DNA from: Blattamonas nauphoetae
Lineage: Eukaryota > Preaxostyla > Oxymonadida
Length of the DNA: 64,000 nt
Assembly (NCBI GenBank): GCA_033064195.1
Contig: JARBJD010000222.1
Coordinates: 60,970 to 124,969, forward strand
Direction: 5' to 3'
Part shown: positions 12,288-38,713 of the stretch, one piece after another
How positions within the stretch are numbered: the first letter of the stretch is position 1
Layout of the letters: the number at the start of each line of letters is the position of its first letter
Made by a program: the position numbers and the translations under genes
The notes under the pieces: model-generated
What the model was told of the DNA's origin: nothing
The model's input: only the letters and a program-made list of their open reading frames with translations
Databases searched by the model: none

Positions 12288-12858
12288 TCATTCGTACACT
12301 CGGCTCTCGCGACTCCCAAGTCAACCAAACACATTGAGCGAGCTCTGCGAGAAGTTGGACCAGCAGTGGAAGCGCCAGTGGTTCGAGTCCCGACACCTCC
12401 AAATGATTCGCCAGAAATCCGACCACTATCAGACCTTCTACCACGCATCCAGTCTCAAGAACTGCCACTGCCACTATACAAAGTCAATCTGTGGAGAGAT
12501 GGAAAAAAAGTACCTCTCACAGAATCCGAACTTGAAAACTGGAACCAATTCCTAGATGAAATGCCGCCCGTCCCGGTGTTTGAAGTTGCAAGAAGAAGAA
12601 ACAGAGAGAAAACAAGTCAATCCAAGCAAAAAACAGTGAAGAGCAACAAGAATCAAAAGCCATCGAAGCGCAAAACTCGAAGAGAAGAAACAACGAGCGA
12701 AGAAGTCAGCTGGTGCGAGCAAGAATCAGATATTGAAATGGAAATTACAAAAGTTAAACGACAAAGTTCAGAAAAGGCAGAAGAATCCGCAACTTGTTCA
12801 GATTCATCATCGTATCCGGAAGCTCGTCGGACAATTAAGATGGAAACTCGATCACACG
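12288..12858. repeat. 571-bp exact duplicate of 38728-39298
   Basis: Line-by-line comparison found no mismatch between 12288-12858 and 38728-39298 (constant offset 26440). The left edge is TCATTCGTAC in both copies, preceded by unrelated sequence (host beta-helix here, palindrome-rich DNA at 38727). The right edge is CACACG in both, then AAGATG here but CCAAGC at 39299. Perfect identity implies very recent duplication, gene conversion or, less likely, an assembly effect. Confidence 0.9.
12366..12858 (+). pseudogene. Tyrosine recombinase gene, N-terminal fragment
   Basis: The first 164 codons (MEAPVVRVPTPP… to METRSH) are identical to the start of the intact recombinase gene at 38806. At 12858 the homology stops and the frame runs on into antisense reverse-transcriptase sequence up to 13178, giving a chimeric frame with no catalytic domain. 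It includes the basic cluster KSNKNQKPSKRKTRREE, a likely nuclear-localisation signal. It lies antisense to the last ~69 codons of the reverse transcriptase frame. It is presumably non-functional as a recombinase, but it retains whatever promoter lies in the shared 78 bp upstream of the ATG. Confidence 0.8.
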
Positions 12859-15800
12859 AAGATGAGAAAGAGGAAGAGGGAGTCGATTTCTTCCTTCGTC
12901 CTGTTCGCGGGACTTGCTTCTTGTATCTAGCCCGCTTTGGTCTGGCAAAGTTCGGAGCTATTGACTTGTCATCTTGTTTTGGATTGGGTAGCTTGCGTTT
13001 CGGTCTGAGAGTCCTTGGTGGGAAGTTGCCCTTGGAGGGGCACTTGTGTGAAGTGACTTCCTCATCAATTGTCAAGTCAACGAAAGTTTTCCTTTTTGAG
13101 CCATTTTGGGGCTGGCCAAGGTCGTTGTGGTCGTCGTCGGAATCCAACTCAATCAGAACAGCCGCGGGCGGTATTTGAGTTTGGGGTGTTCTGGTGGGCT
13201 GTGAGGAGCCCGGAATTGGGTTGAGTGAAATTGAAGGTGGAGGGGTAAAGGAGATCGGAAGAGTGTCTGAGCCAAAAGTGATTTGCTCCAGAGAGGGCTC
13301 AATGTCAATGTCGATATCAGTGAGGGTCAGCCCAGGAGGGGGCATCTGGCTGACTTCGGCATCCTGTGTGGTCGACCCAGGAATGGGCAAGAGACCGACT
13401 TCGGCATCACTTGGAGTCAGCCCTGGGGCGGGCTCTTGATCAACATTGACATCGGTTGGGGGTAACCCGAAGATGATCTCTTGAATGACTTCGGCATCAT
13501 TGGAAGGGAGTTCAACAATCATCTTCTGACCAACTTCGGCATCTTTTTGAGTCGACCCTTGGAGGGGCAATTGGGTGGCATCGGGATCCATTGGAGTTGG
13601 CCCAAATTGGGGTTGAATGGAAAAATCACAAATGGGTGGATTGTCTTCCGAAAAAAGTTCCTCGAATGATATTTCGGGTTTCTCGTCAGTCCTTCGCTCT
13701 GACAACTCCCTGTGTGAAAAGTTGGTTGAATCAGGTTCACGGCGGGTCCTGGTCAAAGACATTGGATTTTCGAGATTGGGCCCCGAAATGGGCAAATCAC
13801 TGTCGGAACGATCAACTTCCATTCCTGCATTAACGAGATCACTGTCCCCGGATTGGGCCAATTCGTGATCGGAACTGCCCCTTTCCATGGTCTCGACAAT
13901 GTGCTCTTCTGGTGACGTGGAGGTCATGATAACCATTGAGCCCTCAGAAGGGCCAGGAATAGAAGGTTGAGAGGGAGACTCTGAAGATGGAGTTAGAGCC
14001 ACGAGGGGCGGTTGAGAAACTTTATGTTCAGAGTTGGGTTGTGGAACATAATAAAAACGAGGAGTGAAAATGATGGAAGTTGGCCGGGTGAGGGTGGGAG
14101 TGTGTTTTTCAACTGATTGGTTATTTGCCGGGAGGTTGAGCGTAAGTTGATGATTTGAAGAATTTCGAGATGGCCCTGAGCGGGGCACTTGAGGTGGTCC
14201 AGAGGGAGGTGAAGAAGAAGGTGAGGTTGAGGGTGGGCCCTGAGAGGGCGAAGCAAGATTCGGCCCCAGAGAGGGCAAAGCAAGATTCGGTTGTTGAGAA
14301 TGAAGATTCACCGCACTGAGTAAATATGTTGTGCTTGGTGAAGGTTGGGTGTTGAGCCCATTTTGGGCATCTTGTTGAACTGAAAAATTCTGAAGACTCC
14401 ATGTGAGTTTTTGACAGACCCGACGTTCCATGATGCATCTGCTTTGTTCCAGGACAAGAGAGGTCATTTGGAGGAAGTGGTAGACTTGGGCTGATTTGTG
14501 CCCATCTCGGGCCACCTTCTTCATAAAGTCCAAAAACAGTTCCATGTTGTTCCCAAGCTGACCATTCTCACTGATCCCAATGCCAATCACCTTGTGTTCT
14601 TGTCCAAGTTTCTTGTAGTGTTTGAACTTGCCCTCTTCAGCCTGGTTGACAGCTGTTCGAGGGTCGGGGAGGAGACCCCGGTGGAGGGCATTTGGGATGT
14701 CTTGGGCGATTGTCAAGTCGAGCCCAAAGGTGAGGGTGTTCCCAGAGCGGTCACCACCCTGGAGGAGGTTAGTGACGAATTTGTGATTGCTCACTTGGGT
14801 TGTGATAGTGACTCGGATGTCAGCAATGGCCCCAGCGGGTCTGGGCTTTGTGCCCAAATTGATCCCATCCATCCAAACTGGCTTTTCCAACTCAGTGACC
14901 ACATTGGGTATCTGTTGAAGAAGACGGTTCAACCAAAGTTTGATTGTGGTGTGCCGGGCTGTCCTTGCGGATCCATTGATTTGACAGCAGGAGGCATGGT
15001 CGACCCGAAATTGGACTGAACAAAGTGGGCAAGGTACAGAGTAGTTCAAATTCCTTCCTTGTTTATCCAGCAGTGTTTTCCCCAATTCGTACGATGTGGG
15101 TTCTTTGAGCATTCTGTAGTTGAGAGAGTTCAGAATGGTGTCGTTGTCCAAAACATGGAATTTGTCCACAGGCATCATGGTGACCCAAAAATGGGCTCGA
15201 CTAGCACAGATCGTGGCATGTCGATTTTGAGCCCAATCTGGGAGAGGGTCTCTCCATTGGGTCAATTTGTCCTTTTCCAACAGACGAACCATCTTCCCCT
15301 GCCCGCGTCGGGCTTTTTCAAATTGGTCAGGATTCAGCATGCTGATGACTGAAATGACCATCTGAAGGGGGCTGAATGTTGATGATGGTGGTTCCTGCCC
15401 GAGTTGGAATGGAGCCCCAGATGGGTTGGGGTTGGCTTGCCAGAGGAAGGGCCGTCTTGACGTCATGGCATGGACAAGGGAAGGAATGTTTGAGCCCGCG
15501 AATGAGCTGAAGCCAAGTCCACCATCTTCAACGTTGGCATGGATCAGAATTGAGTTCGACTGTGGGAGATGGAAGAAAGTGAGCAGATGCGTGATGAGAA
15601 GATCATCAGCCTGACGAAGGACATGCCCCGAAATGGGCAGAGTTCGAAGAAGATGAAGGGGTCGAACGTTGATACACTGTCTCAGAAGGAGTAGATGTGT
15701 TTGATGTGACAACAGCCCCAGGAAGGGCAGCAAGTCATCTGACTTTTTGACTTTGGCGAAAAACATTTGATCTCGTTCATTTTGGTCCCTTGTGAGAAGT

Positions 15801-18589
15801 GTCCCCAGAAGGTACATTGAAGTCGTTGGGGTGATTGTTGAACCCATGAGCCCAAATGGGGCAGTTGAGATTTGCCCCTCCAGAATGGAGACAGCCACAG
15901 TCTTGGCTGGGTTGAGTTGAAGCCCATGTTCACTGAGGGAATTGTGAAGACGGACCATGGAGGATGTGAGAGTCTGTAGTGAAGAAGCCACAATGACCAA
16001 GTCATCCAAATAGCCCCAAACTTGAACAGCCCCATCAGGGGTTTCAGCTTCAGACATGCATCTGGTGAGATACAGAGCAAAGAGGGCAGGCGACAACGGG
16101 CACCCTTGTTGAACACCCCTGGTGTTGTGAATGACGGCTCTCTGACCATGACTGTCCAACACCAACTTTTCCTTTGAAAATGCTTGTGTCAGAAATTGGA
16201 CCAGCTGGGGGTCATGGTGATCCAATTGCACAATTTTGTCAATGAGAAGTTGTCTTCGGACACACTGGTACGCATTGGACATGTCGAGGGCAGCAACGAC
16301 CAAATTGGTTTTCTGAGCAATAGCCCCATCCAGGGCATCTCCAACTGCGAAAACGATCTCTTCAATTCCATTGGGATGACCCACCCCTCGTTGTCTGGGG
16401 TGAATCCGATCGAGAAACCATTGACGGTTGCGTTGGAGAAGGACACGGGCCATGAGCTTTTTCAGAGAATGTTGGACCGAAATGGGCCGAACACCACCTT
16501 TGGCCTTTGGAATGCCCACCATCCTGACCAAACACCATGCCGTGGGCACAAAGCCTTTTTCAAGACATTCCGAAATCACAGCCCCAATGAGGGCAGAAAC
16601 GGGTTTCAGATGAGTTGCTGACCGTTTCAGGAGTTCTGCTGTGATTCCATCAAGAGACGCCGTTGAGTTCGAATTCAGTCGTTGAAGTTGAATTTCGACA
16701 TTTTCACGTTCAAGGTCCCACCCTTCCCGGGGCTCACCAAGATCTTGAAGAGTCAATTGGCGAGGATCATCAGCATTGTGAAGGGCTTGAATGATTTGGA
16801 CCATGTCTTCGAAAGGAATCTCCGGAACGGGGTGAATGACTTTGGAAAGTTCTTTGAGAGCCCTGGATGGCTTTCCTTTTGCCACAAGAGTTTCAATCTT
16901 TTTCTTCTCAGCTCGACCCAATCTGGGGCTTTCTGACACATCTTCAGTTGGTGGCTTCCATTGGAAGGGTTGCTCCCCTTTGGGCTTTTTTGGTTTTTTG
17001 GTCTTCAGGACATAAGGGGTTGCTGAGAGCCTCCAAACAGCAGTATCCACATTTTCGAAGTTCACATCTCTTTCTGCCAAAAGTTGGGCTATTTTGGCAA
17101 AATGATGTTTGAGGAGCTGACTAGCTGCGTTCAGATGTTTAGTCGTGTCATCTTCATCCCAGAACACATATCCAAGATCTTCGGTATATTCGACCCCATC
17201 AAGGGCCTCGACATCAATTTTCTTGTTGGAGATGGTTCGAAGTGGTGGCGGGAGAAGATGTCCTTCAACAGTTGGAAGGGCTGTTTGTCCTTTGAGGTTT
17301 GCCAGGATGAGGTTGGTGTCACGATCTTGTCGAGATGGCATTTGGGTTCCTGCCATCGAAGGTGTGATCGATGGGGGCCCATCCGTGGGCTGTCCTCTTT
17401 TCGACTTTGGAAGAGGACCACGTGTTCCAACCGTTGACCCTCTGGGGGCCTTTGGAGTCTGTCCAGGCTGTTTGGATGGAGGTGGAAGACTGAAGATTGT
17501 TTCCTTGGCTTTGAACCCATTCAAGGTCTTAGTGTCTGATTCTTGACAAAGGGTTGTTAATTCCTCATCAGAGATGGACATGATGGATGATGTCGGAAAA
17601 GAGAGTGAAAGCCCCTCTTGGGGCACTTGTCCAATTCTGGGGAGGAGGGCCGAAAACGGGCAAAAGACGACTCTCTCCAACTTTTTGATGGAATTTCGAG
17701 AGGAAATGAGAGTTGAGATGAACTGGGTCTCTGACTGCTTTTGACCCTTGTTTCTCAGAATTCGATGAAGTTGCTCATTGTTCAGTCTGGAAGCCACTTT
17801 CCAAGCTTGTCTGGCCCATTGGCGGGCTTGATCCTGAGCCACGTCAATCGCCCCAATTTGGATTGATTCAGAAGGATCGGAGTCCGATGACTCTTCTGCG
17901 GGACATTCTTCAGATGAATCATCAAGACTAATCGTGAATCGAGGTTGCTTTGGACGAGGTGAAGCTTCGCCCAATTTGGGCTCATTGGGTGAGACCACTG
18001 GAGTTTCATTGACAGGTTGAGATCTTGATGGAAAACCGTAGAATTCTTCGAATGTGACCTCCTGAGGGTTGTCTGGAGGCGGAACGGTGATGAAGTCCCA
18101 AACAGGGTTTTCAACATTGGCCAAATTTATCATGCCCGTGGAGGGGTCGATGGCATGACGAAGTTTTTCAATGTCATCAACATGTGCAGGATCGATGAGT
18201 GTGGTTGGGGCTGGTCTCTCTACTGATTTCTTCACGGTTTTCTTTCGATTCTGAGAGATTGTCAATTCGACCCCGGATTGGGTCAATGTGATTGTGTTGG
18301 TTTCTTCAACAGTCTTTTCAACACTTTCGATTGACACTCGTTTGTGAAGCCCCGAATTGGGTTGATCAGGGAGATACGCAGGTTCCTTGACCAGGCAGTT
18401 GAGAGGGTCATCATCTTCAGGAACATATTCAGTGTCAGAACAGTCATCCCCAGAGGGATCATCTGGTGGGAAGATCCATGCCGTTTGGCGATCTCTTTCT
18501 TTCATGAGGGCCTGAAGGGTAGCAAGGAGAGGGGGTCCGTCTTGGAATGGGGGCCCATCTGGGGGCCAGGGCTTTCCAAAAATACCCAT
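12653..18589 (-). CDS. Reverse transcriptase with C-terminal R2-like endonuclease (non-LTR type), 1978 codons
   Basis: An uninterrupted minus-strand frame. The reverse transcriptase domain spans about residues 640-900: LDGI (D647), the catalytic LDMSNAY (D769), GVQQGCPLSP (about 825-834) and YLDD (860-863). Downstream is a CCHC knuckle, C1187-x2-C1190-x7-H1198-x3-C1202, then RHTTI, RPAGAIADIRV (R1250, D1257), DLTI, KHYKKL and GIGISENGQLG. That order fits the restriction-like endonuclease of R2/CRE-type non-LTR retrotransposons, which nick the target and prime cDNA on it. Unusual: a ~670-residue Pro/Ser-rich tail with acidic patches and VDLTIDEE (1837-1844), a SUMO-interaction-like motif, then basic NLS-like runs. 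The natural C-terminus is lost: the last ~69 codons are antisense recombinase-gene sequence. At least 20 GCCC-N5/6-GGGC palindromes lie inside the frame. The ATG at 18589 was taken as the first in frame. No RNase H was recognised. Clade assignment is uncertain. Confidence 0.85.
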   Translation of the reverse strand: MGIFGKPWPPDGPPFQDGPPLLATLQALMKERDRQTAWIFPPDDPSGDDCSDTEYVPEDDDPLNCLVKEPAYLPDQPNSGLHKRVSIESVEKTVEETNTITLTQSGVELTISQNRKKTVKKSVERPAPTTLIDPAHVDDIEKLRHAIDPSTGMINLANVENPVWDFITVPPPDNPQEVTFEEFYGFPSRSQPVNETPVVSPNEPKLGEASPRPKQPRFTISLDDSSEECPAEESSDSDPSESIQIGAIDVAQDQARQWARQAWKVASRLNNEQLHRILRNKGQKQSETQFISTLISSRNSIKKLERVVFCPFSALLPRIGQVPQEGLSLSFPTSSIMSISDEELTTLCQESDTKTLNGFKAKETIFSLPPPSKQPGQTPKAPRGSTVGTRGPLPKSKRGQPTDGPPSITPSMAGTQMPSRQDRDTNLILANLKGQTALPTVEGHLLPPPLRTISNKKIDVEALDGVEYTEDLGYVFWDEDDTTKHLNAASQLLKHHFAKIAQLLAERDVNFENVDTAVWRLSATPYVLKTKKPKKPKGEQPFQWKPPTEDVSESPRLGRAEKKKIETLVAKGKPSRALKELSKVIHPVPEIPFEDMVQIIQALHNADDPRQLTLQDLGEPREGWDLERENVEIQLQRLNSNSTASLDGITAELLKRSATHLKPVSALIGAVISECLEKGFVPTAWCLVRMVGIPKAKGGVRPISVQHSLKKLMARVLLQRNRQWFLDRIHPRQRGVGHPNGIEEIVFAVGDALDGAIAQKTNLVVAALDMSNAYQCVRRQLLIDKIVQLDHHDPQLVQFLTQAFSKEKLVLDSHGQRAVIHNTRGVQQGCPLSPALFALYLTRCMSEAETPDGAVQVWGYLDDLVIVASSLQTLTSSMVRLHNSLSEHGLQLNPAKTVAVSILEGQISTAPFGLMGSTITPTTSMYLLGTLLTRDQNERDQMFFAKVKKSDDLLPFLGLLSHQTHLLLLRQCINVRPLHLLRTLPISGHVLRQADDLLITHLLTFFHLPQSNSILIHANVEDGGLGFSSFAGSNIPSLVHAMTSRRPFLWQANPNPSGAPFQLGQEPPSSTFSPLQMVISVISMLNPDQFEKARRGQGKMVRLLEKDKLTQWRDPLPDWAQNRHATICASRAHFWVTMMPVDKFHVLDNDTILNSLNYRMLKEPTSYELGKTLLDKQGRNLNYSVPCPLCSVQFRVDHASCCQINGSARTARHTTIKLWLNRLLQQIPNVVTELEKPVWMDGINLGTKPRPAGAIADIRVTITTQVSNHKFVTNLLQGGDRSGNTLTFGLDLTIAQDIPNALHRGLLPDPRTAVNQAEEGKFKHYKKLGQEHKVIGIGISENGQLGNNMELFLDFMKKVARDGHKSAQVYHFLQMTSLVLEQSRCIMERRVCQKLTWSLQNFSVQQDAQNGLNTQPSPSTTYLLSAVNLHSQQPNLALPSLGPNLASPSQGPPSTSPSSSPPSGPPQVPRSGPSRNSSNHQLTLNLPANNQSVEKHTPTLTRPTSIIFTPRFYYVPQPNSEHKVSQPPLVALTPSSESPSQPSIPGPSEGSMVIMTSTSPEEHIVETMERGSSDHELAQSGDSDLVNAGMEVDRSDSDLPISGPNLENPMSLTRTRREPDSTNFSHRELSERRTDEKPEISFEELFSEDNPPICDFSIQPQFGPTPMDPDATQLPLQGSTQKDAEVGQKMIVELPSNDAEVIQEIIFGLPPTDVNVDQEPAPGLTPSDAEVGLLPIPGSTTQDAEVSQMPPPGLTLTDIDIDIEPSLEQITFGSDTLPISFTPPPSISLNPIPGSSQPTRTPQTQIPPAAVLIELDSDDDHNDLGQPQNGSKRKTFVDLTIDEEVTSHKCPSKGNFPPRTLRPKRKLPNPKQDDKSIAPNFARPKRARYKKQVPRTGRRKKSTPSSSFSSSCDRVSILIVRRASGYDDESEQVADSSAFSELCRLTFVISISISDSCSHQLTSSLVVSSLRVLRFDGF
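12890..18565. repeat. Dispersed GCCC-N5/6-GGGC palindromes within the RT frame
   Basis: Exact copies include 14356-14368 (GCCCATTTTGGGC), 15625-15638 (GCCCCGAAATGGGC) and 17611-17624 (GCCCCTCTTGGGGC). Others lie near 13026, 13329, 13420, 13781, 13938, 14172, 14235, 14262, 14497, 15303, 15716, 15850, 16323, 16570, 17367, 17810, 17973 and 18552. Many one-mismatch forms (ACCC…GGGC or GCCC…GGGT) lie between them. Density is lower across the RT core (15.9-17.2 kb). The loops vary in sequence and the palindromes fall in different codon phases. Confidence 0.85.
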
Positions 18590-18740
18590 AATTTTCTGGA
18601 TACCTTGGATTAAGTAAAAATGCGAGATTTAAGCATTTGACTTTGGTGATACAATATTACCACATTTAACCAACTTGAAAAAGCGAAAGTGAGAGTTTAA
18701 TAAAAAATGAGATTTGTGAATAGAGAATAAAGGGGTCTTG
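18590..18740. other. 5' flank of the RT frame / right junction with host
   Basis: AT-rich sequence with a TTTAATAAAAAA run and no palindromes. On the minus strand this would be the leader and promoter of the reverse transcriptase. Host sequence resumes by about 18750, in the pyrimidine-rich tract corresponding to the intron at 2190-2276 in copy 1. The RT-bearing segment therefore appears to sit within a host intron. No target duplication could be defined. Confidence 0.4.
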
Positions 18741-19600
18741 TCGATCTATCCGCCCTCCCGCTTTCTCCTCGTCTTCTCTCCCCTTCTTCATTGTGTTCAC
18801 CATCACTATATTCCATCTACATCGCTGCATTCCCTCTCCCTCCCTCTCCCAGCCAACTCGGACTGAATGCGGATACGAACGCGTACCAAGTCGCTCAAGA
18901 CTTCATCTACGCTAACAACCTCGACCAAAACTAACAGCCTCCCCTCGAGTCTTCTCAACGCAATATTGATCCTTCACTCAAGTGCTGAACTGCCTGAAGG
19001 GAGGCAATCTGTAGCAGATGTTCGGGATGTGCATCGAAGAGAACGACTCAGTGTCGGAGAGATGAAGGTTGATCAATAGTGATTTCAAGACAATGGAAAC
19101 ACTACTAAACTTGGTCAAGCATGATACACAGCTGGAATCCCTGCTGATATCGAAAGCGCATGTCAACATCGGGACGCGGAAGATGTCGTTCAAACCAGAA
19201 ATACAGCTCTTCCTATGTTAAGATCTGTTGATAATCATCCTTTTCACACTTTTAGAGATTAAACAGTGCACGAATAATGTGTGATATCATTTCTTTTCTC
19301 ATTCTTTGTCTTCATCTCTAATTCCAGCCTGACAACATCTCCCATCTTCACAAGATTTATCGGATGCAATTTCTCCACCCATCAGCCAACTGCCTCAACC
19401 AAGTGTTCTCCCTCATCCGCTTTTTCCTGTTTCTGGTCAACGCCTGGAAAGAGACGTCTTTTCCTCTCAATCTAGTCTCATCATTCTCTTTCTGATGAAC
19501 TACGCACAGTGTCTCCGCATTACTGGGTGTGCCATGTTGGCCGGATTCGCATTCTTTGCCACTTTTCATATTCGGTATCACAACGCGACGCGAATGTTTT
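18741..19600 (+). pseudogene. PLAA/Doa1-like PFU-PUL remnant (copy 2)
   Basis: A pyrimidine tract ending ctcccag at about 18850 is followed by QLGLNADTNAYQVAQDFIYANNLDQN, a good match to the second half of a PFU domain, ending at a TAA in the same place as copy 1. About 120 bp present in copy 1 are missing here. Further on are VKHDTQLES-like and PDNISHLHKIYRMQFLHPS segments, then QVFSLIRFFLFLVNAWKE at about 19405-19455, matching the PUL-like part of copy 1. The first half of PFU is missing because the RT-bearing segment replaces it. Non-functional as it stands. Confidence 0.45.
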
Positions 19601-20612
19601 GCTGTTCACGATTCAATGTGTTATCGCCGCTTTCCACCACTTTGAAAGATCTGGTCTTTCCTGGAAGCGTCCCAAACATGGCTAATTGAAGCTCTGTGTG
19701 TCCAAAGGAGGACTGTCATTTGGTGGCTTCACCATGCTCACTTTTGTTGGAATAAGCAAGTATGGTCGCTAGAAATGGGCCTTTTGACATGAAGAGCCTA
19801 TTCCGGTCATGAATTCGTAGAAATCTGAACAAAAACCAATCATGTTTACAGCGAGTCCGTCTTTCGCGACTTCACTCGCTATTCGACCTCCAACATTCAC
19901 CACACCTGGAAAATCCCAATCAACATCTCCTTCACTGCTTTTGAAGACGTTACACACTCACAAGTCGAAAACAGCGCAAGATATTACGATCCTTCCTCCA
20001 TCCACCTCCTGTGCACTCCCTCCGATTCATGCACCCCCAATCATCATTAATCCGACGAACATGTCCTTAAATGGAGATGATGAGCCAAACGAACAATCAC
20101 CTTCGTCGTCCAAGGAACAAGAGAAGTCAAACTCTCTCCTTCTCACGCCGCGTGCCTCGTCGCCTCAATAACTCGCTCCAATCATCATTCCACCCGCTAC
20201 AAACACCCCACGTCTTGCTCCTGTCCCAGCATCGCCGCTCCCCCTCTCCACGCTCTCTACTCTCTACGAACTACTTCGCTGCTCCAGAATGCCTGTCAGA
20301 GCAGATGTGTCAGAAAATGCCGAAACATCAACCGAACCTGTCCCGTGACCAGGCGCCCTCAGTCCGACTGAACGTGCTGAACGAGATTCTGTCATCAGGA
20401 TCACATCCAACGCTCTCGACACTCTCCGATTTGGAGTACACCCACACGTCACACGCGAAGATCCTCCCTCGGCTGGGACTGCACCTGCTCGATTATCTTT
20501 CGATGCTGTCCCGCGTCAACCCCAATTTCAGCTTCCTCCCATCCAGCCCTCTTTAAACAATTGTGCTTTCTCTCAACGATGGCTAGACCACACTCCTCAC
20601 TGGCCATTCTCC
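19601..20612 (+). pseudogene. Host segment, copy 2 (unknown Ser-rich protein remnants)
   Basis: The stretches 19870-20190 and 20330-20490 are close copies of 3170-3430 and 3900-4060, with small frames such as 20071-20556. No domain is recognised. Copy 2 carries about 250 bp (19.61-19.86 kb) that copy 1 lacks. The segment is cut by the fold-back element at 20613. Confidence 0.4.
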
Positions 20613-21189
20613 TATAGTAGTAAAATAACCCGGCGAGGGTAAAATAACCCGGGGTGAAAACCCCCTTTTTTGGATCCCTCTTTCCGTCCATCCCATATTT
20701 CTCGGAACCAAAATTTTTTTGGGTCCCACTTTTTTTTCCATAATGTTTGTCTCAACTCCGAGTATCCATCAAGGTAGAAATCGAACCTCCAAAATAGGAT
20801 TCTGGGCCGGGGGTGCCTATTTCGGAACCATATTTTGGCCTATTTTTGACCCATTTTTGGCTCCTAAATAGGAGGTCCTTAACATTTAAGCTTAGAGGAT
20901 CCGAACTTCACGACCACTTTTCTCCACGCCTGTTCAAAATTTTTCTTTCTCGTTTCATTTCTGGTTGTTTGGGATGTTTTTCTCTCGAAATCACAATTTT
21001 TTGAAAAATGAAAAATCCTGGGGGGACCTGGGTGGAAATTCAGGGTCAAAAACTGATTTCCCTGTATACAAAGCTTAGTGATCTGAAAACTTGTTTTGAT
21101 CATATCTCCACAACCAGACATAGTTCCGACATGAAGTTTTCACCAATATGGATGTTTTGTTGGATTATATTTTTTTCTGAAAATTTTGA
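20613..21189 (+). repeat. Fold-back element, left arm
   Basis: This 577-bp arm is exactly complementary to 21440-22016; every mirrored coordinate pair sums to 42629, so there is no indel. It ends CTGAAAATTTTGA, where the two arms diverge. Confidence 0.92.
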
Positions 21190-21439
21190 AAATTTTCGAA
21201 GACCTCCTATTTTAGCGTCTTTGATAGTTTTCGTGGTTTTCTCAGAATCAACCCCAACTGCTCTCCTCCCAAGCACGATTCTAACCAATTTGAGCTTTTG
21301 GATTCGATTCTGATTGTGTTCGCATCATTTTAATGAAATTTGGAGACGGGTGCATCATCCCATGTCAAGTGACAGCTCTCCTTTCGAACCAAGGCCAAAA
21401 ACCCACAAAAGAATCTCAACTGCCGCAAAGGGATTTTTC

Positions 21440-22016
21440 TCAAAATTTTCAGAAAAAAATATAATCCAACAAAACATCCATATTGGTGAAAACTTCATGT
21501 CGGAACTATGTCTGGTTGTGGAGATATGATCAAAACAAGTTTTCAGATCACTAAGCTTTGTATACAGGGAAATCAGTTTTTGACCCTGAATTTCCACCCA
21601 GGTCCCCCCAGGATTTTTCATTTTTCAAAAAATTGTGATTTCGAGAGAAAAACATCCCAAACAACCAGAAATGAAACGAGAAAGAAAAATTTTGAACAGG
21701 CGTGGAGAAAAGTGGTCGTGAAGTTCGGATCCTCTAAGCTTAAATGTTAAGGACCTCCTATTTAGGAGCCAAAAATGGGTCAAAAATAGGCCAAAATATG
21801 GTTCCGAAATAGGCACCCCCGGCCCAGAATCCTATTTTGGAGGTTCGATTTCTACCTTGATGGATACTCGGAGTTGAGACAAACATTATGGAAAAAAAAG
21901 TGGGACCCAAAAAAATTTTGGTTCCGAGAAATATGGGATGGACGGAAAGAGGGATCCAAAAAAGGGGGTTTTCACCCCGGGTTATTTTACCCTCGCCGGG
22001 TTATTTTACTACTATA
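21440..22016 (-). repeat. Fold-back element, right arm
   Basis: Exact inverted partner of 20613-21189. No difference was found in the mirrored comparison, implying recent insertion or active homogenisation of the arms. Confidence 0.92.
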
Positions 22017-22739
22017 TTTCCTCCTTCACACGACATCGAGCCACTTCGACGCTGTCGCTCGCTTCCTGGCAAGCTCAGTTCCACTCCGGTGAATTTCTGG
22101 TCGCTCGGTACAACTGTGCTCCCTCCCTCGCTCGTTTCGTGTCTGCACTCCACGCTCCTCACGTTCCCCCACATGACACAAACAACACGTCTCTCTCGGA
22201 ACAAGAAAACGAGAAGAAAGAAAAATGTTCGAACAAGCAGAAAGACGGAAAAAAGGAGCTGGAAGCAACGAAACTGGAAGCATCGAAAACTCTCAAGAAG
22301 GACAAGCGAATTACACGAAAGCACCGCAGTTACGGATTGTCGGAAATCTCAGGAATTCCCGTTCTACCTAAAAAACTAAAAGCCTGCCTCTCACAATGTC
22401 AAATCACTGCGCAGCTGCTTGAAGCCAACAGATCGAGATCAAGTCGATCCGGAAGTTCAAGTCCGCAATTGCTCGTTTGTTGCCTGCACATCGGTTGAGA
22501 TGTTCCTCGTTGGCCTCTGCCTACCACTCGACCCCAGCTCGGCTCATTTCGACAGCGTTGGTGGGCGGAGGTCTAACTTCAGAAGAATCTTTTTCGGTCT
22601 CGACGATGTTTCCAATGACTTTGTCCTCATCAACTGTCCACTCTGTCACGCAGACATCGGATGGTTAGAATGAGGATGATGGAGCTGCCGCTTCACTTGA
22701 TTGAATTTCATCTAGTTGTGTCTCTCTGACAGACATCTC
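22017..22739 (+). pseudogene. Host segment, copy 2 continued
   Basis: Overlapping frames (21938-22498, 22419-22673) with a Lys/Glu-rich stretch (EQENEKKEKCSNKQKDGKKE) are followed by VCCLHIG-like and DPSSAHFDSVGGRRSNFRRIFFG segments. The stretch 22030-22680 recurs at 52.15-52.74 kb with substitutions and indels in both copies. Function not recognised. Ends with GACATCTC (22732-22739), the left target duplication of the next element. Confidence 0.4.
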
Positions 22740-24421
22740 CAGGCTTTTGAGTGGTGGGATCAAAACAGGTAAAACTGGGATCAATTGATCCCAGTCCCCA
22801 TTTTTTGACTGACATCACTTTCTTAAATAGGAGTTTCGAGATTTTCCTCATTCAATTTCAAACTCGATTTTCCTCATTCTCACAAAGACCTGTCTTTTGC
22901 TGATTTTCGAGTCTTTTAACCGAAATCATGATTCTAAAGGAGAATGGTGTTGAGAACAGGAGTTAACAAGAGAAGAAGAGTGAAGAAAAGTCAAGGGAAG
23001 TGACCGATTTGTCTTCTCCACACAATTCAAAGTCACATGCACACAGCTCGACGAACTCTTCAATTGGCTTCTGATTCGTCCTATTCTTCTCGTTCCACAT
23101 TCTTCTCAACTAGTCGATCACACACACAACCGAATCAACAAATCCACTCTCTCCTCTCACAGATCGCCCACACTAACTCCAAACACTTTCTCGTTCTAGC
23201 TCTCCATCGCCAGCATCTCCTCACTCGCCAACGGATCGTCCGGAAGCCCCACCTCAGCCAGAAGAACATATGGACTTGCTTTCGAACTCAGCGCAGATTC
23301 TGTCATAGATACTTGTTGTGATGCTGCAATATGGAAGAAAGGACCAATTGTAAGCATTGACACTTTTTCCCGCGTTGAGTGCACTAGGCTCGCAAAACAC
23401 CGATCATAGCAATTCATCGCTCGCTTGGAAAAATGCTTGAGAGGCGACAGATTTTGGAGCGGCACCGGATCTTCTTGCTTTCAGAAGAGTACCCAGAATA
23501 CAAACGAGAGACAGGCAGATCGGGGAAGACCATTCTCCACACTCGACTGACCGTTAGGAAATCGCGAGGGATTAGAGGAAAAAGAATATCAGAATAGACT
23601 TTAGATGATGCAGAGGAAGACATACTGTTTGCAGCATCAAATTCAAACCGAACAGATGAAGTCCCATCGCATCTTGGGAAGGATGGAAAAACAATCCCAA
23701 AACTGACCTTCCCGAAGTTGAACTACACGATGCCACGGTTGTCCGTCCTCTCTCGACCGCCCCTGCCTTCTCCTCCCAAAACCAACCGCTAATCACAATA
23801 CTGAGATCTCGATTCGTCACAAACAAAACCGCGCCTCGCCGCCCCTCGTCCTCCCCGTTCTCCTCACTCACTCCCCACCACTCGCCCACCGACCCCTTCC
23901 GCGCTGTGCTCTCGTCACTGTTCGTATTCCTCTGCTCTGCGACGGTTCTGACGGCGTCGATCCAAGCGGCGTTGCACATCCACGAAGTGGGCATCTCTCG
24001 GCTCTTCTCACTTTCAATTTTACAAACTCGCACTCCCTATTCGCCATCCCCATCTCCCAGAATCGAGCTCATTCCTTCTGAAGCAGTTCATCCGGTCTTA
24101 ACCATAAATTTGGATTTCACTCTCATCTCAATTGTTTTGGACATATCATCAATTTTATGTGCAAATCCAAGAATTATTCACTGTTTATTCTTCGGACGAC
24201 ATTCAGAAACTCGGAAATTTACATCATATACGCCATAATTGTGAGTCACAAAAAGACTCATGTTATTGTTCGATCTAATGAACATTTTCATTTCATCTCG
24301 GTTTTCTATTCAGATATCATATATTTCAAGAAGGAAAATAGTGAAAAGAAACGAAATGGTATTGCAGAAATTAACTGGGATCAGATCCGACTGGGATCAC
24401 TGGGATCAAATCAGAAGCCTG
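22740..24421. mobile_element. hAT-type non-autonomous element, 1682 bp
   Basis: Left end CAGGCTTTTGA (22740) and right end TCAGAAGCCTG (to 24421) form an 11-bp inverted repeat with one mismatch. Flanking 8-bp direct repeats GACATCTC lie at 22732-22739 and 24422-24429. The uninterrupted host version, with one ACATCTC, is at about 52789-52795, which confirms insertion. Subterminal TGGGATC motifs cluster at both ends (22756-22790, 24376-24410), matching the 521-bp element in reverse orientation. The ~1.4-kb interior (22.9-24.3 kb) has several 90-150-codon frames on both strands, none resembling a transposase. It may be captured sequence. Confidence 0.9.
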
Positions 24422-24429
24422 GACATCTC

Positions 24430-26749
24430 GTTCTCTTTCCTCTTAACCACAGACTCTGGAAGTCTGATTCGTTGAACATCATCAGGAACAGATTGAACGT
24501 GAAAAGGCAGATGAGGAAGAACAGCTCGGGTTGGATGAAGAAGAAAGGAAACATCCCAAAGGAAAAGGAGGAGAGAGTAAAGATGGAAGAAGAGCGACGC
24601 GAGGCCGATTAGATTCAAAACGACTGAGCTAAACCATGTGAGATTCGAGAACAACACATCCGCTCGATACAACGACATCTTCATCGAATCCTCTCTCTTC
24701 GGGGGAAAAGACAGCGAGGAGGAGAGACATCACGGTGTCTGGCACAACATCCACGATGCGAAGACGGCGAAAGTGTTGCGATCGCTGTTGGAGGTGGACA
24801 AAGATACTGTGGAAGGATCATTTGACTTCACGATATTTGGAGTGCCTCTCGTGTCATTCAATTCCTTTTCTGTGTCTGGTCACGCCCTGCTCGCCATCAC
24901 AACCGAACAGCCAACCTCGTCCGTTTCTGTGAACTTCGAAGACATCACCCAGACAATTGCTGGGAAAGCGCGATGTGTTCATGTGACGTCATCCTCTCTT
25001 GGAACAGTCGTGACTCCTTCACATTGGGCAGGATCGTTCACTCAATCTCAGCCTCTTTTTGACTTCGTTGGATGCGACAGCTCTCTCACCTCTGGCCACC
25101 CATTCTTCGGGTTATCGCTGTTATTCTATCTCCTCCCTGTCCTCGGCTCTCGCCTCGGCACTCGCTCATTCACTCAGCACCGCGCTTTTCGTGTTGAATA
25201 CAACATCTGCTTCTTCTTCCGTATCCGAAAGTGGAGCAAAAAGTCTTCCCGTTGTGAAAGAGACAACTAGCTCGCTCTCAATCGAGGAGTGTTCATTTGG
25301 CTCACCGGAATCAGACACCCCACTCACTTCAGCCCTTTTCGACATCTCATTCAGCAACCCTCCGTGTTGAACTGACCGACACAGACACACTCTGCTTCAC
25401 AACAATACGAATTGAGTCGTGCTCATTGACTGGTGCTCCTCTCCTCTCGCTTGTTCTCTCAGCAACCCAACATACGAATTGGGACCTCAATCTGAAAGGG
25501 ATTTCGTTTGCAGAGGAATCATCGAACTCTGTTCTATCTGGTGCCCTCATCTTCATTTCTGGTACTTCGTTTGCGACGCAACTTGCTCTCTCTCGCTTCC
25601 CGCCAGTTTATCCAGTAACAGATGAAAACAAGTTCTGGTGAATTGATTCATCCACTTCAGTGGAATCGTCGCTTCTGGTGTGTCTTGTCGAACCTTGAAA
25701 CGAGATTGATGTGGATGGGAAGAAAGGAAAGGACATCGGCCACTGCGGTCATTTTGGAGTTGCTTGTTCGATGATCGGAAAGGGGAATGGTCGAGCGAAT
25801 ACTGCTGACACTCTCAAAGTAGATCAACCTTCAAGACGAGACGAAGAGGGACGAAGCGATCGCTCTTCACTCAATCACACTCTCGATTGGACGACAGACA
25901 GGGCAACTCGTCGTCTCATCACTTTCCTTCGAAACAAGAATCGACTCTTAATCTCACTTCCTGATCACTCTCCACGCAGCTAGCTCACTCACTATCACAT
26001 CCTGCTCCTTTACATCGTTCACTTCATCCACATCTCCGTCAATTCTTTCATCCACCATCCAACCCATCCAATCTGTGACTCTCTCCGACACATCCTTCGT
26101 CTCCTGCCACTCATCAGTTTCTGCACGATCTGGTGTTCTTGATGTGTCTCTCATCGAAGGAATCACGATCACATTCACCCACTCATGCGAAACGTTCACA
26201 TCCTGCTCGTCTCCAAAAGCGACAGCCAATCTGATCTTCATATCACACCCATCTTTGTCAGTATCAGTGATTTCGTCGTCTCTTGACTTGGACTCGACAA
26301 AGACCTCAGACTCGTTGGCTGACTTAGCTGTGAAAGAATGAGAACATCATGTTCCGGTCCCGCTCTTCCTGCTTTTCTCGATATTTGGGGAAGAAGTGTT
26401 CATCTCGAAGGATTCGTGTGATGTATCGGTTTGTAGCTTCTCAGAGTTTTAGAGACAAATCACACAAAACGCACAACTGTCTCTTCACGATCATTCAAAG
26501 TGTGAACATTATTGGAGCTCTCACTACAAATCATTAGACACCAGTGTTCTCCATGTCAGCTCCCAAATTGTCGCTTCAATCATGTTCCATGTCATCTTTA
26601 CAGTTTGCACAGGATCCAACCACCCCAACAACTGTTCTGGGAGCTTCACTCTTTGTTGTTTCGAAGACTAAATCGGTCGAATACGATGATTCTACATTTA
26701 CTCTCTTCATGAAAGTGATCTTATTCGAAGGATTTCACAACCCAGTGTT
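24430..26749 (+). pseudogene. Beta-helix surface protein segment, copy 2
   Basis: The best run is 24638-25190: FENNTSARYNDIFIESSLF, then GVPLVSFNSFSVSGHALLAI, SVNFEDITQTIAGKARCV and HVTSSSLGTVVTPSHWAG, typical alternating strand/turn repeats. Further parts in other phases are VKETTSSLSIEECSFGSPES (25.23-25.32 kb) and TLSDTSFVSCHSSVSARSGV (26.08-26.14 kb). The block is paralogous to 52.79-57.48 kb, which carries about 2.3 kb extra (53.89-56.2 kb) absent here. Several phase changes and stops make it a pseudogene or exon cluster. The hAT element lies at its upstream edge. Confidence 0.55.
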
Positions 26750-26851
26750 GTGACACATGCAATTGGAACAGTCGCACTGACACAACTCTGTGAGATATGG
26801 AATGAAAAGATAGGGAAGCTTGTGCAGATTATTTATCATTACAAGAGGGAG
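26750..26851 (+). CDS. Candidate exon upstream of the minisatellite
   Basis: The phase reads VALTQLCEIWNEKIGKLVQ then IIYHYKRE and ends precisely at GAG, followed by GTAAGC, a strong 5' splice site, at 26852. The first ~65 bp are paralogous to 57463-57528. Joined in the same phase to the candidate exon at 32123 it would continue KREVQIAIRGKLLAEADSES, a plausible helical sequence of unknown function. Confidence 0.35.
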
Positions 26852-29800
26852 GTAAGCGTATTCTTTTTTCTTCATTGCGAGTGGGGGAGTTCGTTCGTAT
26901 TGTTCTGCTTGTTGTGGAGGGCGAGTGGGGGAGTTTGTTGAGCTTGTTGTTCTGGTTCTTCTTGTTGTTGAGGGCGAGTGGGGGAGTTTGTTGAGCTTGT
27001 TGTTCTTCTTGTTGAGGTCGAGTGGGGGAGTTTGTTGAGCTTGTTGTTCTGGTTCTTCTTGTTGTTGAGGCCGAGTGGGGGAGTTTGTTGAGCTTGTTGT
27101 TCTTGTTCTGCTTGTTGTGGAGGGCGAGTGGGGGAGTTTGTTGAGCTTGTTGTTCTGGTTCTTCTTGTTGTTGAGGGCGAGTGGGGGAGTTTGTTGAGCT
27201 TGTTGTTCTGGTTCTTCTTGTTGTTGAGGGCGAGTGGGGGAGTTTGTTGAGCTTGTTGTTCTTGTTCTTCTTGTTGTTGAGGGCGAGTGGGGGAGTTTGT
27301 TGAGCTTGTTGTTCTGGTTCTTCTTGTTGTTGAGGTCGAGTGGGGGAGTTTGTTGAGCTTGTTGTTCTGGTTCTTCTTGTTGTTGAGGGCGAGTGGGGGA
27401 GTTTGTTGAGCTTGTTGTTCTGGTTCTTCTTGTTGTTGAGGGCGAGTGGGGAGTTTGTTGAGCTTGTTGTTCTTGTTCTTCTTGTTGTTGAGGGCGAGTG
27501 GGGGAGTTTGTTGAGCTTGTTGTTCTTGTTCTTCTTGTTGTTGAGGGCGAGTGGGGGAGTTTGTTGAGCTTGTTGTTCTGGTTCTTCTTGTTGTTGAGGG
27601 CGAGTGGGGGAGTTTGTTGAGCTTGTTGTTCTTCTTGTTGAGGTCGAGTGGGGGAGTTTGTTGAGCTTGTTGTTCTGGTTCTTCTTGTTGTTGAGGGCGA
27701 GTGGGGAGTTTGTTGAGCTTGTTGTTCTTGTTCTGCTTGTTGTGGAGGGCGAGTGGGGGAGTTTGTTGAGCTTGTTGTTCTGGTTCTTCTTGTTGTTGAG
27801 GGCGAGTGGGGGAGTTTGTTGAGCTTGTTGTTCTTGTTCTTCTTGTTGTTGAGGGCGAGTGGGGGAGTTTGTTGAGCTTGTTGTTCTGGTTCTTCTTGTT
27901 GTTGAGGTCGAGTGGGGGAGTTTGTTGAGCTTGTTGTTCTGGTTCTTCTTGTTGTTGAGGGCGAGTGGGGAGTTTGTTGAGCTTGTTGTTCTTGTTCTTC
28001 TTGTTGTTGAGGGCGAGTGGGGAGTTTGTTGAGCTTGTTGTTCTTGTTCTTCTTGTTGTTGAGGGCGAGTGGGGGAGTTTGTTGAGCTTGTTGTTCTGGT
28101 TCTTCTTGTTGTTGAGGGCGAGTGGGGAGTTTGTTGAGCTTGTTGTTCTTCTTGTTGAGGTCGAGTGGGGAGTTTGTTGAGCTTGTTGTTCTGGTTCTTC
28201 TTGTTGTTGAGGGCGAGTGGGGGAGTTTGTTGAGCTTGTTGTTCTGGTTCTTCTTGTTGTTGAGGGCGAGTGGGGAGTTTGTTGAGCTTGTTGTTCTTCT
28301 TGTTGAGGTCGAGTGGGGGAGTTTGTTGAGCTTGTTGTTCTGGTTCTTCTTGTTGTTGAGGGCGAGTGGGGAGTTTGTTGAGCTTGTTGTTCTGGTTCTT
28401 CTTGTTGTTGAGGGCGAGTGGGGAGTTTGTTGAGCTTGTTGTTCTTGTTGGTCTTGTTGTTGAGGGCGAGTGGGGAGTTTGTTGAGCTTGTTGTTCTGGT
28501 TCTTCTTGTTGTTGAGGGCGAGTGGGGAGTTTGTTGAGCTTGTTGTTCTGGTTCTTCTTGTTGTTGAGGGCGAGTGGGGAGTTTGTTGAGCTTGTTGTTC
28601 TGGTTCTTCTTGTTGTTGAGGGCGAGTGGGGGAGTTTGTTGAGCTTGTTGTTCTTGTTCTTCTTGTTGTTGAGGGCGAGTGGAGGGAGTTTGTTGAGCTT
28701 GTTGTTCTTGTTCTTCTTGTTGTTGAGGGCGAGTGGAGGAGTTTGTTGAGCTTGTTGTTCTTGTTCTTCTTGTTGTTGAGGGCGAGTGGGGGAGTTTGTT
28801 GAGCTTGTTGTTCTTGTTCTTCTTGTTGTTGAGGGCGAGTGGGGGAGTTTGTTGAGCTTGTTGTTCTGGTTCTTCTTGTTGTTGAGGGCGAGTGGGGGAG
28901 TTTGTTGAGCTTGTTGTTCTTGTTCTTCTTGTTGTTGAGGGCGAGTGGGGAGTTTGTTGAGCTTGTTGTTCTTGTTCTTCTTGTTGTTGAGGGCGAGTGG
29001 GGAGTTTGTTGAGCTTGTTGTTCTGGTTCTTCTTGTTGTTGAGGGCGAGTGGGGGAGTTTGTTGAGCTTGTTGTTCTTCTTGTTGAGGTCGAGTGGGGGA
29101 GTTTGTTGAGCTTGTTGTTCTGGTTCTTCTTGTTGTTGAGGGCGAGTGGGGGAGTTTGTTGAGCTTGTTGTTCTTGTTCTGCTTGTTGTGGAGGGCGAGT
29201 GGGGGAGTTTGTTGAGCTTGTTGTTCTGGTTCTTCTTGTTGTTGAGGGCGAGTGGGGGAGTTTGTTGAGCTTGTTGTTCTGGTTCTTTTTGTTGTTGAGG
29301 GGCGAGTGGGGGAGTTTGTTGAGCTTGTTGTTCTTGTTCTTCTTGTTGTTGAGGGCGAGTGGGGGAGTTTGTTGAGCTTGTTGTTCTTGTTCTTCTTGTT
29401 GTTGAGGGCGAGTGGGGGAGTTTGTTGAGCTTGTTGTTCTGGTTCTTCTTGTTGTTGAGGGCGAGTGGGGGAGTTTGTTGAGCTTGTTGTTCTTCTTGTT
29501 GAGGTCGAGTGGGGGAGTTTGTTGAGCTTGTTGTTCTGGTTCTTCTTGTTGTTGAGGGCGAGTGGGGAGTTTGTTGAGCTTGTTGTTCTTGTTCTGCTTG
29601 TTGTGGAGGGCGAGTGGGGAGTTTGTTGAGCTTGTTGTTCTGGTTCTTCTTGTTGTTGAGGGCGAGTGGGGAGTTTGTTGAGCTTGTTGTTCTGGTTCTT
29701 CTTGTTGTTGAGGGCGAGTGGGGGAGTTTGTTGAGCTTGTTGTTCTTCTTGTTGAGGTCGAGTGGGGGAGTTTGTTGAGCTTGTTGTTCTGGTTCTTCTT

Positions 29801-32122: not shown

Positions 32123-32233
32123 GTTCAGATCGCGATCCGTGGCAAGTTGTTGGCTGAAGCTGACTCTGAATCCTACATCAGTTTTATCTGTTTCTGCAAA
32201 ATTCGCGAGTTGAGATCTTACGCTCGTTCAATA
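32123..32233 (+). other. Candidate exon downstream of the minisatellite
   Basis: After the CTTCAG acceptor the phase-0 reading is VQIAIRGKLLAEADSES then YISFICFCKIRELRSYARS. It runs into the antisense of the hAT transposase at 32234, so any host exon must end around there. Unknown function. Confidence 0.3.
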
Positions 32234-34614: not shown

Positions 34615-34655
34615 CGAGAAAAATATGGGAATGTGATCAATCCCGGATCTCGTCT

Positions 34656-37600: not shown

Positions 37601-38673
37601 TTAATCGAAAACCCGCTTGGGTGTTCATACACATTTGACATTGTAGTTGAAGTGAATTCTGACCCGCTGGGGGGCTGATCATTGAAGGAAGGATGATGAA
37701 ATTCCATCTCATTTGAGGGTTCGTTTTCCATTTCCATGAACATGTAGGTCGATAAGTGAAAAGTTTCTTGCCCATTGCTGGGCTGAAAATTGACTGTACT
37801 TGACTCAAATGCCATCACACTCAATTGATCCTTTTCCATTTCCTTTTCAAATGACGTTGATGCTGGAACGAGAACTGACCCATTTTGGGGCTCAACATCG
37901 GAAGATGCTGATTTAAACTGTGACCCACTTGGGTGTTCATTGTCAGTTGATGTTGGTTCAGAAATGACTTCTGGCCCGCAGTGGGGCTGATCATCGAGGA
38001 ATGCGACGTGAGTTGGAATTCCATTTGAGGGCTGACAATCCATTTCCATTGATGAAGTGATAAGTTCTTGCCCATGAAAGGGCTCTGCGGTGGGTTGTCC
38101 AGTCAACAATCCCATCCCACAAGACTTTTCAATATCCACTATTGTTGTTGCTGTTGTAGATGCTGAATTGAATTCTGACCCATTTTGGGGCTCAACAGAA
38201 ACTTCTGTTGATTTAACTGGTACCCCACGAGGGTGTTCAGATTCCACTTCCATTGATATTGAGTTTCGTTCAGACCCACAGGGGGGCTCAACTTTGGTCA
38301 GTGCGGGAAGGAAATGCACTTCTGGTTGGGCTCTAAAAGTCACAAATTTGCGGTTGTGAGCTTCAGATCTGAGTGAACGATATGGTACTGTTGAACGAGA
38401 GCCCGGCTTGGGCATTTGGAATGTCAGGAGAGAGGCCCCAGGAAGGGCCGAAGAACGAGATGGACGATTGGGAAAACGAGAGGAGAGCGACAGGGAGGGG
38501 TTGATGCGCTCAAAGATCGCTTGGATCCTGAGACTTTTTTTGGACCGAGGAAGGGCAGAATGAGAAGTTTGTGTCGACGTTGAGAGAGGGAAGGGTCGAC
38601 GGGAGGACACAATTGTTCGTGTCGACGTTGAGAGAGGAAAGTGTCGACGGGGGTGAAATTGAGTTGAAAACAC
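34656..38673 (-). pseudogene. Repetitive low-complexity protein frame packed with palindromes, one frameshift
   Basis: Two minus-strand frames, 38673-36337 (778 codons) and 36512-34656 (618 codons), overlap by 176 bp in different phases and share the same repeat style. They are probably one ~1,300-codon gene broken by a 1-base change near 36.35-36.40 kb. The protein consists of irregular repeats of about 30 residues ending in short blocks such as EPQNGS, QPPSGS or QPHSGQ. Larger near-identical units recur (36541-36730, 36961-37150, 37501-37690). The C-terminal third is different: basic RTSRRRRRRQKHHDRK and PPAGLSTHRADFLNSF. No enzyme domain is recognised. It could be a DNA- or RNA-binding structural (Gag-like) protein, but that is only a guess. 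It is divergent from the recombinase gene, whose ATG lies 133 bp away. Confidence 0.55.
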
Positions 38674-38713
38674 AGAAACAGAAGGATTCGACGATGGAAC
38701 GACCCCGAAAGGG
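34766..38713. repeat. Dispersed GCCC-N5/6-GGGC palindromes within the 34.7-38.7 kb frame
   Basis: Exact copies occur near 34766, 35124, 36088, 36290, 36397, 36492, 36606, 36812, 36913, 37026, 37232, 37449, 37770, 37973, 38070, 38402 and 38435, with many ACCC…GGGC/GGGT forms between. The last is ACCCCGAAAGGGC at about 38702, only ~15 bp from the shared recombinase-gene segment. Spacing is mostly 60-120 bp. Here most copies fall in one codon phase and encode P-x-x-G. Confidence 0.85.

Follow-up and report, generated by a model that had tools for sequence, protein, structure and literature searches.

A palindrome array conserved in both the coding and the noncoding sequence of a telomeric R2-like retrotransposon family in Blattamonas nauphoetae

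Structure of the window copy and of its family

The window, that is, the whole 64,000-nucleotide stretch of Blattamonas nauphoetae DNA analysed here (assembly GCA_033064195.1, contig JARBJD010000222.1, positions 60,970 to 124,969), is the end part of the contig that we call C138 in the genome searched (88.31 Mb, 837 contigs). It holds, on the reverse strand, two halves of a copy of a retrotransposon family designated family A. The RT half (12849..18566, −) comprises a pre-RT region, an RT domain (PF00078, 15865..16513, −), a CCHC knuckle, a restriction-like endonuclease and a low-complexity C-tail, and carries 35 sites of a short palindrome, 21 of them of the exact form GCCC-N5/6-GGGC. The 5' half (34772..38729, −) holds ORF1, with its low-complexity P-x-x-G repeats, and 33 RCCC-N5/6-GGGY sites lie in 34765-38729. 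Between the halves stands a hAT-like insertion of 16,205 bp (18567..34771), foreign to the retrotransposon, with the ends CAGGGCTTTCCA/TGGAAAGCCCTG and an 8-bp target duplication, CTGGGGGC, at 18559-18566 and 34772-34779. It cuts the palindrome GCCCATCTGGGGGC (18553..18566), which is undivided in the copies on C478, C523 and C627 and, with one spacer change, on C385; half the bases of site 34766-34779, the first of the ORF1 half, are the end of the insertion. At locus L065 (C478) the counterparts of window positions 18371-18566 and 34766-38729 adjoin and meet in one palindrome, and on C627, C478, C430, C523 and C385 a homolog of the 36.3-38.7 kb frame precedes the family A RT gene on its 5' side. 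Judged by these counterparts, the two halves are one retrotransposon copy split by the insertion. The extent of 12890..18565 given by an earlier, sequence-only reading is real as an RT block and too short for the array, which goes on at 34766-38714.

The transposase-like frame of the insertion (34614-32929, −) gave zf and DUF4371 matches, both below the Pfam cut-offs. A length of 16.2 kb is large for a hAT, and captured host DNA or nested insertions are perhaps included. Its landing in a palindrome was a single event and was taken as chance. The insertion also holds a 100-copy array of a 53-bp unit (26902-32098) and shares sequence with the rest of the window, as at 18934-19595, which is like 2498-3158.

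Both ends of the window copy abut the same 571-bp stretch (12288..12858, identical to 38728..39298). It comes from the 5' part of a tyrosine-recombinase-like gene and in its second copy runs into the frame 38806-42876 (+). This direct duplication arose either as a target-site duplication of unusual length or in the course of repair. The recombinase-like family, which we take to be such from its motifs, gave only weak Myb matches in Pfam and has 69 genome matches, its relatives including L034, L035, L036, L042 and L058. Telomeric repeats are present in 5 of 30 of its loci, and these elements may be telomeric too. The exact palindrome is absent from 29 of the 30 loci, and the exception, L042 (2 exact sites), contains a family A fragment.

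The window copy lacks its 3' end, since the copies on C23 and C296 extend past 12849 to ...CCAAGGGCGAGTAA, and its 5' end, since those on C478 and C627 extend upstream of 38729. Its ORF1 is broken (frames 38673-36337 and 36512-34656), while the ORF1 of C478 is open at that place and is interrupted elsewhere, further 5'. Because the window copy is decayed in this way (truncated at both ends, frame-broken and split), statements on the family rest on the other copies.

With respect to its class, the RT domain matches PF00078 with E=5.5e-24 and has GYLDD, a YxDD-type motif, in frame; the closest sequences in PDB belong to LINE-1 ORF2, to a further RNA-directed DNA polymerase and to R2. The CCHC knuckle is followed in the RT frame by a PD-(D/E)xK-like endonuclease, and C76, C79, H87, C90/C91, D146, D180, K210 and Y214 are invariant in an alignment of one family A and four sister-clade rows. 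A model of the C-terminal domain (pTM 0.71, pLDDT 69) found R2 in all of its six best PDB fold matches (E 5e-4 to 5e-3, TM 0.35-0.45 of the query). As far as these motifs and this model indicate, the element is an R2-like (RLE-type) non-LTR retrotransposon. Pfam returned RVT_1 alone above cut-off for the RT frame, and a simple spacing-pattern scan, which diverged domains could escape, gave no match to the N-terminal C2H2 zinc finger and Myb that mark the R2 clade proper; for this reason the element is called R2-like and not R2. No Rfam family reached the gathering threshold in six loci (L001, L008, L042, L065-L067), and a G-quadruplex function was discarded, as neither strand of the two coding parts contains a (G3+N1-7)x4 pattern.

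The RT search of the genome gave 88 matches. Family A pieces lie on 12 contigs (C138, C321, C523, C385, C478, C296, C37, C627, C430, C359, C233 and C27), with 81-100% amino acid identity for the best piece per contig, and a tree of 18 rows, midpoint-rooted, splits them from a sister clade with support 100/100. Searches with the C-tail and ORF1 of family A hit 18 and 6 contigs, respectively, and one with its Rep gene, described below, gave 12 rows: three are the open frames of C478, C627 and C430, two come from a fragment on C336, and the remaining 7, all weak, are spread over six other contigs. This fall in contig number from 3' to 5' is the pattern shown by 5'-truncated retrotransposons. On the 69-kb contig C303, sister-clade RT pieces follow one another on one strand in steps of about 4-12 kb, which suggests head-to-tail arrays.

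The 3' end of family A joins ...TTAAACCCTAACCC (CCCTAA repeats) in all three of the examined copies that reach it (C23, C99 and C296, the last with only about two telomeric repeats); it is absent from the C27 and window copies. On the 5' side, examined for six copies besides that of the window, TTAGGG arrays truncate the copies on C23, C27, C37 and C99, that on C296 abuts the 3' end of the next copy, head to tail, and that on C478 has ten CCCTAA repeats upstream, then a degenerate array to the contig end. By the junctions of the copies examined, family A is a telomeric retrotransposon. The window copy is an exception, lying inside the recombinase-like gene with no telomeric array within the 64 kb. 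The degenerate array at the end of C478, past the perfect CCCTAA block (L067:2128-2866), is telomere-like, of CCTAGC type, and may be sequencing noise or variant repeats.

The palindrome array and its conservation

The sequence-only reading reported at least 20 exact GCCC-N5/6-GGGC palindromes in 5.7 kb. We counted 21 in the RT half, spanning 13028-18566, and the array proved larger than that reading had it, with 17 more, at 34766-38448, in the second block (34766-38714) and only 1 elsewhere in the window. With GCCC/GGGC arms, no other spacer length between 0 and 15 gave more than one match in 12601-18700. The core is CCC-N5/6-GGG, with 73 distinct sites; in 72 of these the base flanking the core on its 5' side was G (57), A (14) or T (1), and that on its 3' side C (45), T (23), A (2) or G (2), from which the consensus RCCC-N5/6-GGGY follows. 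As had been noticed, substitutions at the outer base fall on either arm, and they make up 33 of the 47 one-mismatch forms. The consensus has 68 sites over both element halves (12.85-18.57 and 34.77-38.73 kb), of which the RT half holds 35 and the ORF1 half 33. The window as a whole has 57 matches with N6 and 14 with N5, against dinucleotide-shuffle means of 1.6 and 1.7, and the three outside the element halves lie in the hAT-like insertion (2) and at 63641. GGGY half-sites are partnered in 34 of 62 cases in the RT half and 33 of 39 in ORF1, against 0 of 20 in 0-12.2 kb and 1 of 54 in 39.3-64 kb. Among 4-mer stems in the RT half, the next best after GCCC (21) has 3; in the ORF1 part GCCC (17) is followed by ACAT (6) and ACCC (5), tandem repeats there multiplying any stem.

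Genome-wide, matches to the motif number 1045 with N5/6 and 438 with N7/8, and reversed-pattern controls 205 and 445. Among the places listed for C1-C27, once the clusters of family A on C23 and C27 are set aside, 29 N5/6 matches remain, compared with 32 N7/8 matches, so that no enrichment is visible there outside family A. All 11 loci with close copies have exact sites, 10 to 17 each, and none of 21 sister-clade loci (45-50% amino acid identity, several near-identical) has one, which makes the array a trait of one family. That homologous RT genes might lack the motif, an outcome that the sequence-only reading took as speaking against it, is thus true of the sister clade and false for the close copies. 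A private motif for each sister subfamily was also considered and rejected, since in the 8 sister-clade loci, out of 21, that were put through a dyad scan the top z values were 4.5 to 6.8, whereas the element halves reached 14.7 and 17.7; the one signal looked into, that of L012, is a 30-bp tandem repeat.

Of the 21 exact sites in the RT half, 20 translate as P-x-x-G or A-x-x-G, as would be expected if the pattern were a by-product of selection for these peptides. However, 1000 synonymous-codon shuffles of the RT frame, which keep the peptides, lose the sites (21 observed, mean 2.2, maximum 7), and the same holds for the frames 36337-38673 (13, mean 1.6, maximum 6) and 34656-36512 (6, mean 0.5, maximum 3; 1000 shuffles each). 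With the consensus, the RT frame (12851-18565) has 34 sites against a mean of 5.0 and a maximum of 13 in 2000 synonymous shuffles, or a mean of 8.0 and a maximum of 18 in 2000 that also preserve codon-junction context. Codon-preserving shuffles, the check proposed with the sequence-only reading, thus never reached the observed count. In the RT frame, glycine is written GGG in 25 of 32 cases within sites and 21 of 71 outside, and proline CCC in 20 of 30 and 44 of 150, respectively. Since sites also occur in noncoding DNA, we reject a peptide-driven origin as extremely improbable.

The 34 sites of the RT frame fall in all three codon phases (16, 12 and 6), in agreement with the several phases first noticed. 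Site density is 2.8/kb in the RT domain, the lowest among the RT-half segments (about 3/kb), 1.8/kb in Rep and 8.2/kb in ORF1; the palindromes are sparser where protein constraint is expected.

Aligned copies are 93.5-100% alike in the RT half. At fourfold-degenerate third positions with C or G, 4 of 486 had changed in the arms and 339 of 3024 elsewhere, over ten ordered pairs of four copies. As these pairs overlap and are not independent, single pairs are the fair test, and the three that were run gave, for arms and elsewhere, 0/48 and 37/301 (p=0.005), 0/49 and 40/298 (p=0.003), and 1/48 and 33/296 (p=0.06). Over all positions of the RT half, in another ten ordered pairs, 26 of 1799 arm bases had changed, compared with 1021 of 18564 other C/G. 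In ORF1 the figures were 0/138 and 119/955 from the window to C523, and 4/138 and 140/949 from the window to C385; CCC/GGG triplets were broken in 0 of 58 cases within motifs and 11 of 44 outside (window to C523). Taking overlapping parses singly, ORF1 sites lost without replacement within 40 columns were 4/38 from the window to C385, 6/41 from C523 to C385, 2/41 from C523 to the window and 4/41, plus 2 in gaps, from C478 to C385; none was lost from the window to C523 (0/38) or from C385 to C523 (0/33).

Sites of the RT half mostly share alignment columns across copies, one lying in a gapped stretch, and their spacers diverge like the flanking sequence and are thus uninformative there. These observations bear on the idea that the sites have no function and arose through mutation or mobile DNA, whether by gene conversion, by insertion of a mini-element or by tandem duplication. 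Tandem repeats are indeed abundant in ORF1 and the leader, and their growth must have multiplied sites there, but in the RT half the sites stand in three codon phases with unlike spacers, mostly in the same columns and with conserved synonymous arm bases, so that we judge a purely mutational or mobile origin very improbable.

Noncoding stretches of C478 are as site-dense as coding ones. From the telomere side to the Rep stop there are 4 sites in 483 bases (Markov mean 0.03), and the leader, with repeats of about 120 bp that each contain a site, has 5 in 690 (Markov mean 0.02); two further sites lie inside the Rep gene. The earlier proposal that selection acts on the nucleic acid is supported by such noncoding sites, by the shortfall of the shuffles and by the retention of synonymous arm bases. 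At one aligned leader site (C478, 5' side of L065, and L066:129), the spacer differs at 4 of its 6 bases, while arms and near flanks are nearly identical. Should this hold generally, spacers might be cut and repaired; hypervariable leader spacers are clear at this one aligned site and are not relied on as a family trait.

Probable DNA-level sites and their candidate readers

Palindromes alone cannot separate a DNA from an RNA function. The sequence-only reading had offered both, namely sites for a dimeric protein, which stands as the better option with binding still a prediction, and RNA mini-hairpins, which fared worse. GCCC and GGGC with a 5-6 nt loop would indeed pair in RNA as a 4-bp GC stem, serving RNP assembly, packaging or cDNA synthesis, and several noncoding sites of C478 have longer arms (AGCCC...GGGCT or CAGCCC...GGGCTG), e.g. 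ACAGCCCCTGCCGGGGCTGT. Nevertheless, the outer bases are restricted to R and Y yet unpaired in their occurrence (G..C 38, G..T 17, A..C 7, A..T 6; Fisher p=0.34), and standard pairs are not in excess just outside the arms (16 of 67, expected 20.5) or just inside them (21 of 68, expected 22.8). Compensatory pairing, which the RNA reading needs, was thus seen neither at the outer bases nor beside the arms of the 68 window sites, and among five copies three sites have an uncompensated A..C form in some copy. Other 4-mer stems lack comparable enrichment, and sites occur also in and beyond the oppositely transcribed Rep gene. The uncompensated changes, together with the strict CCC/GGG core, fit base readout of a DNA dyad, and the lack of compensatory pairing favours DNA sites read by a dimer over hairpins. 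We conclude that the palindromes are very probably DNA-level sites and that a hairpin function is improbable.

In C478, a frame opposite to ORF1 and divergently transcribed encodes a Rep-type protein of 363 aa, homologous to PCV2 Rep (7lar, E=4.8e-15) over residues 92-318 and matching PF00910 (E=4.3e-6). From this homology it is classed as a divergent CRESS-type Rep. Its Walker-type helicase motifs are kept, as in PCV2 and relatives. In contrast to those proteins, it lies beside a retroelement and reads LCTR where the PCV2 alignment has YCSK (the catalytic Tyr position). VIQG stands where circovirus-type Reps presumably have HLQG, the PCV2 alignment starting at QG. VIQG and LCTR occur in all three Rep copies (C478, C627 and C430; read full-length in one and over about 150 bases in the two others), which therefore have neither the HUH motif II nor the motif III Tyr of an active Rep; the three are nearly identical in their RT part. 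A search of IMG/VR for close relatives gave 4 pattern matches and 0 confirmed, and a structure model of Rep (pLDDT 35) was set aside. Further Rep-like fragments, several with stops, lie on C457, C60, C184, C183, C401, C112 and C336, and are possibly endogenous CRESS-type sequences.

Sites and Rep both go with family A, and no sister-clade contig is among the Rep matches, which makes Rep the obvious candidate binder. Against this, the Rep fragment of C336 is on a contig without a family A match, and a host protein could bind instead; on balance we lean slightly to doubting that Rep is the binder. With both inspected nuclease motifs changed and the helicase motifs kept, Rep is predicted to bind and form oligomers, not to nick.

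The host protein in question would be one of the telomere or subtelomere (heterochromatin, capping, boundary or telomerase-recruiting), the element being selected to offer it sites. PfSIP2/SPE2 and yeast Tbf1/Reb1 are bound motif arrays in subtelomeres and provide a precedent, and the family A copies examined lie in telomeric repeats. However, the motif is missing from the sister-clade loci, the telomeric position is established for family A only, and outside family A the motif is no commoner than its N7/8 control in C1-C27. Given this restriction, a host mark of general use would need to be confined to family A, and we consider this explanation unlikely, if a serious competitor.

Our preferred reading is that the palindromes are dispersed double-stranded DNA binding sites specific to family A, each consisting of two inverted GGGY half-sites. 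With 9-10 bp between their centres, the half-sites would lie on about the same face of the helix, and we infer a dimer as their binder. Purifying selection would keep the sites through the coding and noncoding DNA of this telomeric R2-like retrotransposon. The likeliest reader would be a dimeric or multimeric protein encoded by the element, the best visible candidate being the Rep of three copies, and, to judge by the density of sites, this reader may mark or coat the element along its entire length. Such marking or coating would most likely keep the element expressed or accessible in telomeric chromatin, in the manner of VANC-like anti-silencing. Taken as a whole, a family-specific array of dimer sites, with Rep as likeliest reader, that marks a telomeric element for expression has in our opinion just under an even chance of being right, and an anti-silencing or expression purpose as such is put forward tentatively. 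More speculatively, a captured CRESS-virus Rep might have become a nuclease-dead protein that coats DNA sequence-specifically, the coding sequence being rewritten synonymously for some seventy or more sites that mark the element as self in telomeric chromatin; this scenario is rather unlikely.

Comparison with known systems

To our knowledge, no other retroelement has a motif held through coding DNA by DNA-level selection, and among the publications searched, as far as titles and the opening lines of abstracts tell, no retroelement with such a palindrome array appears. The maintenance of a motif over thousands of coding bases in this way is, as far as we know, rare.

In the parts of the published accounts considered here, the nearest anatomical parallel is offered by Terminons, giant Penelope-like retroelements that reside at the telomeres of bdelloid rotifers (PMC6431247). 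Their 3' ends carry reverse-complement telomeric repeats, most copies are 5'-truncated by telomeric repeats, and they form head-to-tail arrays with accessory genes that include a rolling-circle Rep (PMC6431247). Family A resembles them in its telomeric anatomy and its Rep gene. It differs in that its RT is LINE/R2-like with an R2-like endonuclease domain, in place of a Penelope-type RT without endonuclease, in the absence of any Rfam match in the six loci, where Terminons have hammerhead ribozymes, and in its dispersed palindromes. Among R2 and other RLE non-LTR elements, with which family A shares its RT, CCHC knuckle and endonuclease domain, GilM and GilT, of the CRE clade, are likewise telomeric and have a high density of G-quadruplexes (PMC10088271). 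Family A has none in its two coding parts by the G3+N1-7 rule, and neither a Rep gene nor a palindrome array is mentioned in the portions of the GilM/GilT account that were consulted (PMC10088271).

For the array itself, the closest analogy is VANC/VANDAL of Arabidopsis, in which a dense short motif is peculiar to one transposon family and lies partly in tandem repeats (PMC5735166). The family A motif is likewise dense, family-specific, in part within tandem repeats and sporadic elsewhere, so that family A may be likened to that system, with Rep as a candidate for the element-encoded protein that would recognise the motif and lift silencing. Unlike the VANDAL motifs, which are mainly noncoding and in one orientation, its sites are palindromic, mostly in coding frames and kept synonymously; an array inside coding frames is not mentioned in the consulted parts of the Terminon or VANC/VANDAL accounts (PMC6431247, PMC5735166). 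With family A, transposon-specific self-recognition becomes open to direct test outside plants, and a viral replication protein has possibly been reused solely for binding. Family A also joins a telomeric RT element to a Rep, the second such case after Terminons and apparently a convergent one.
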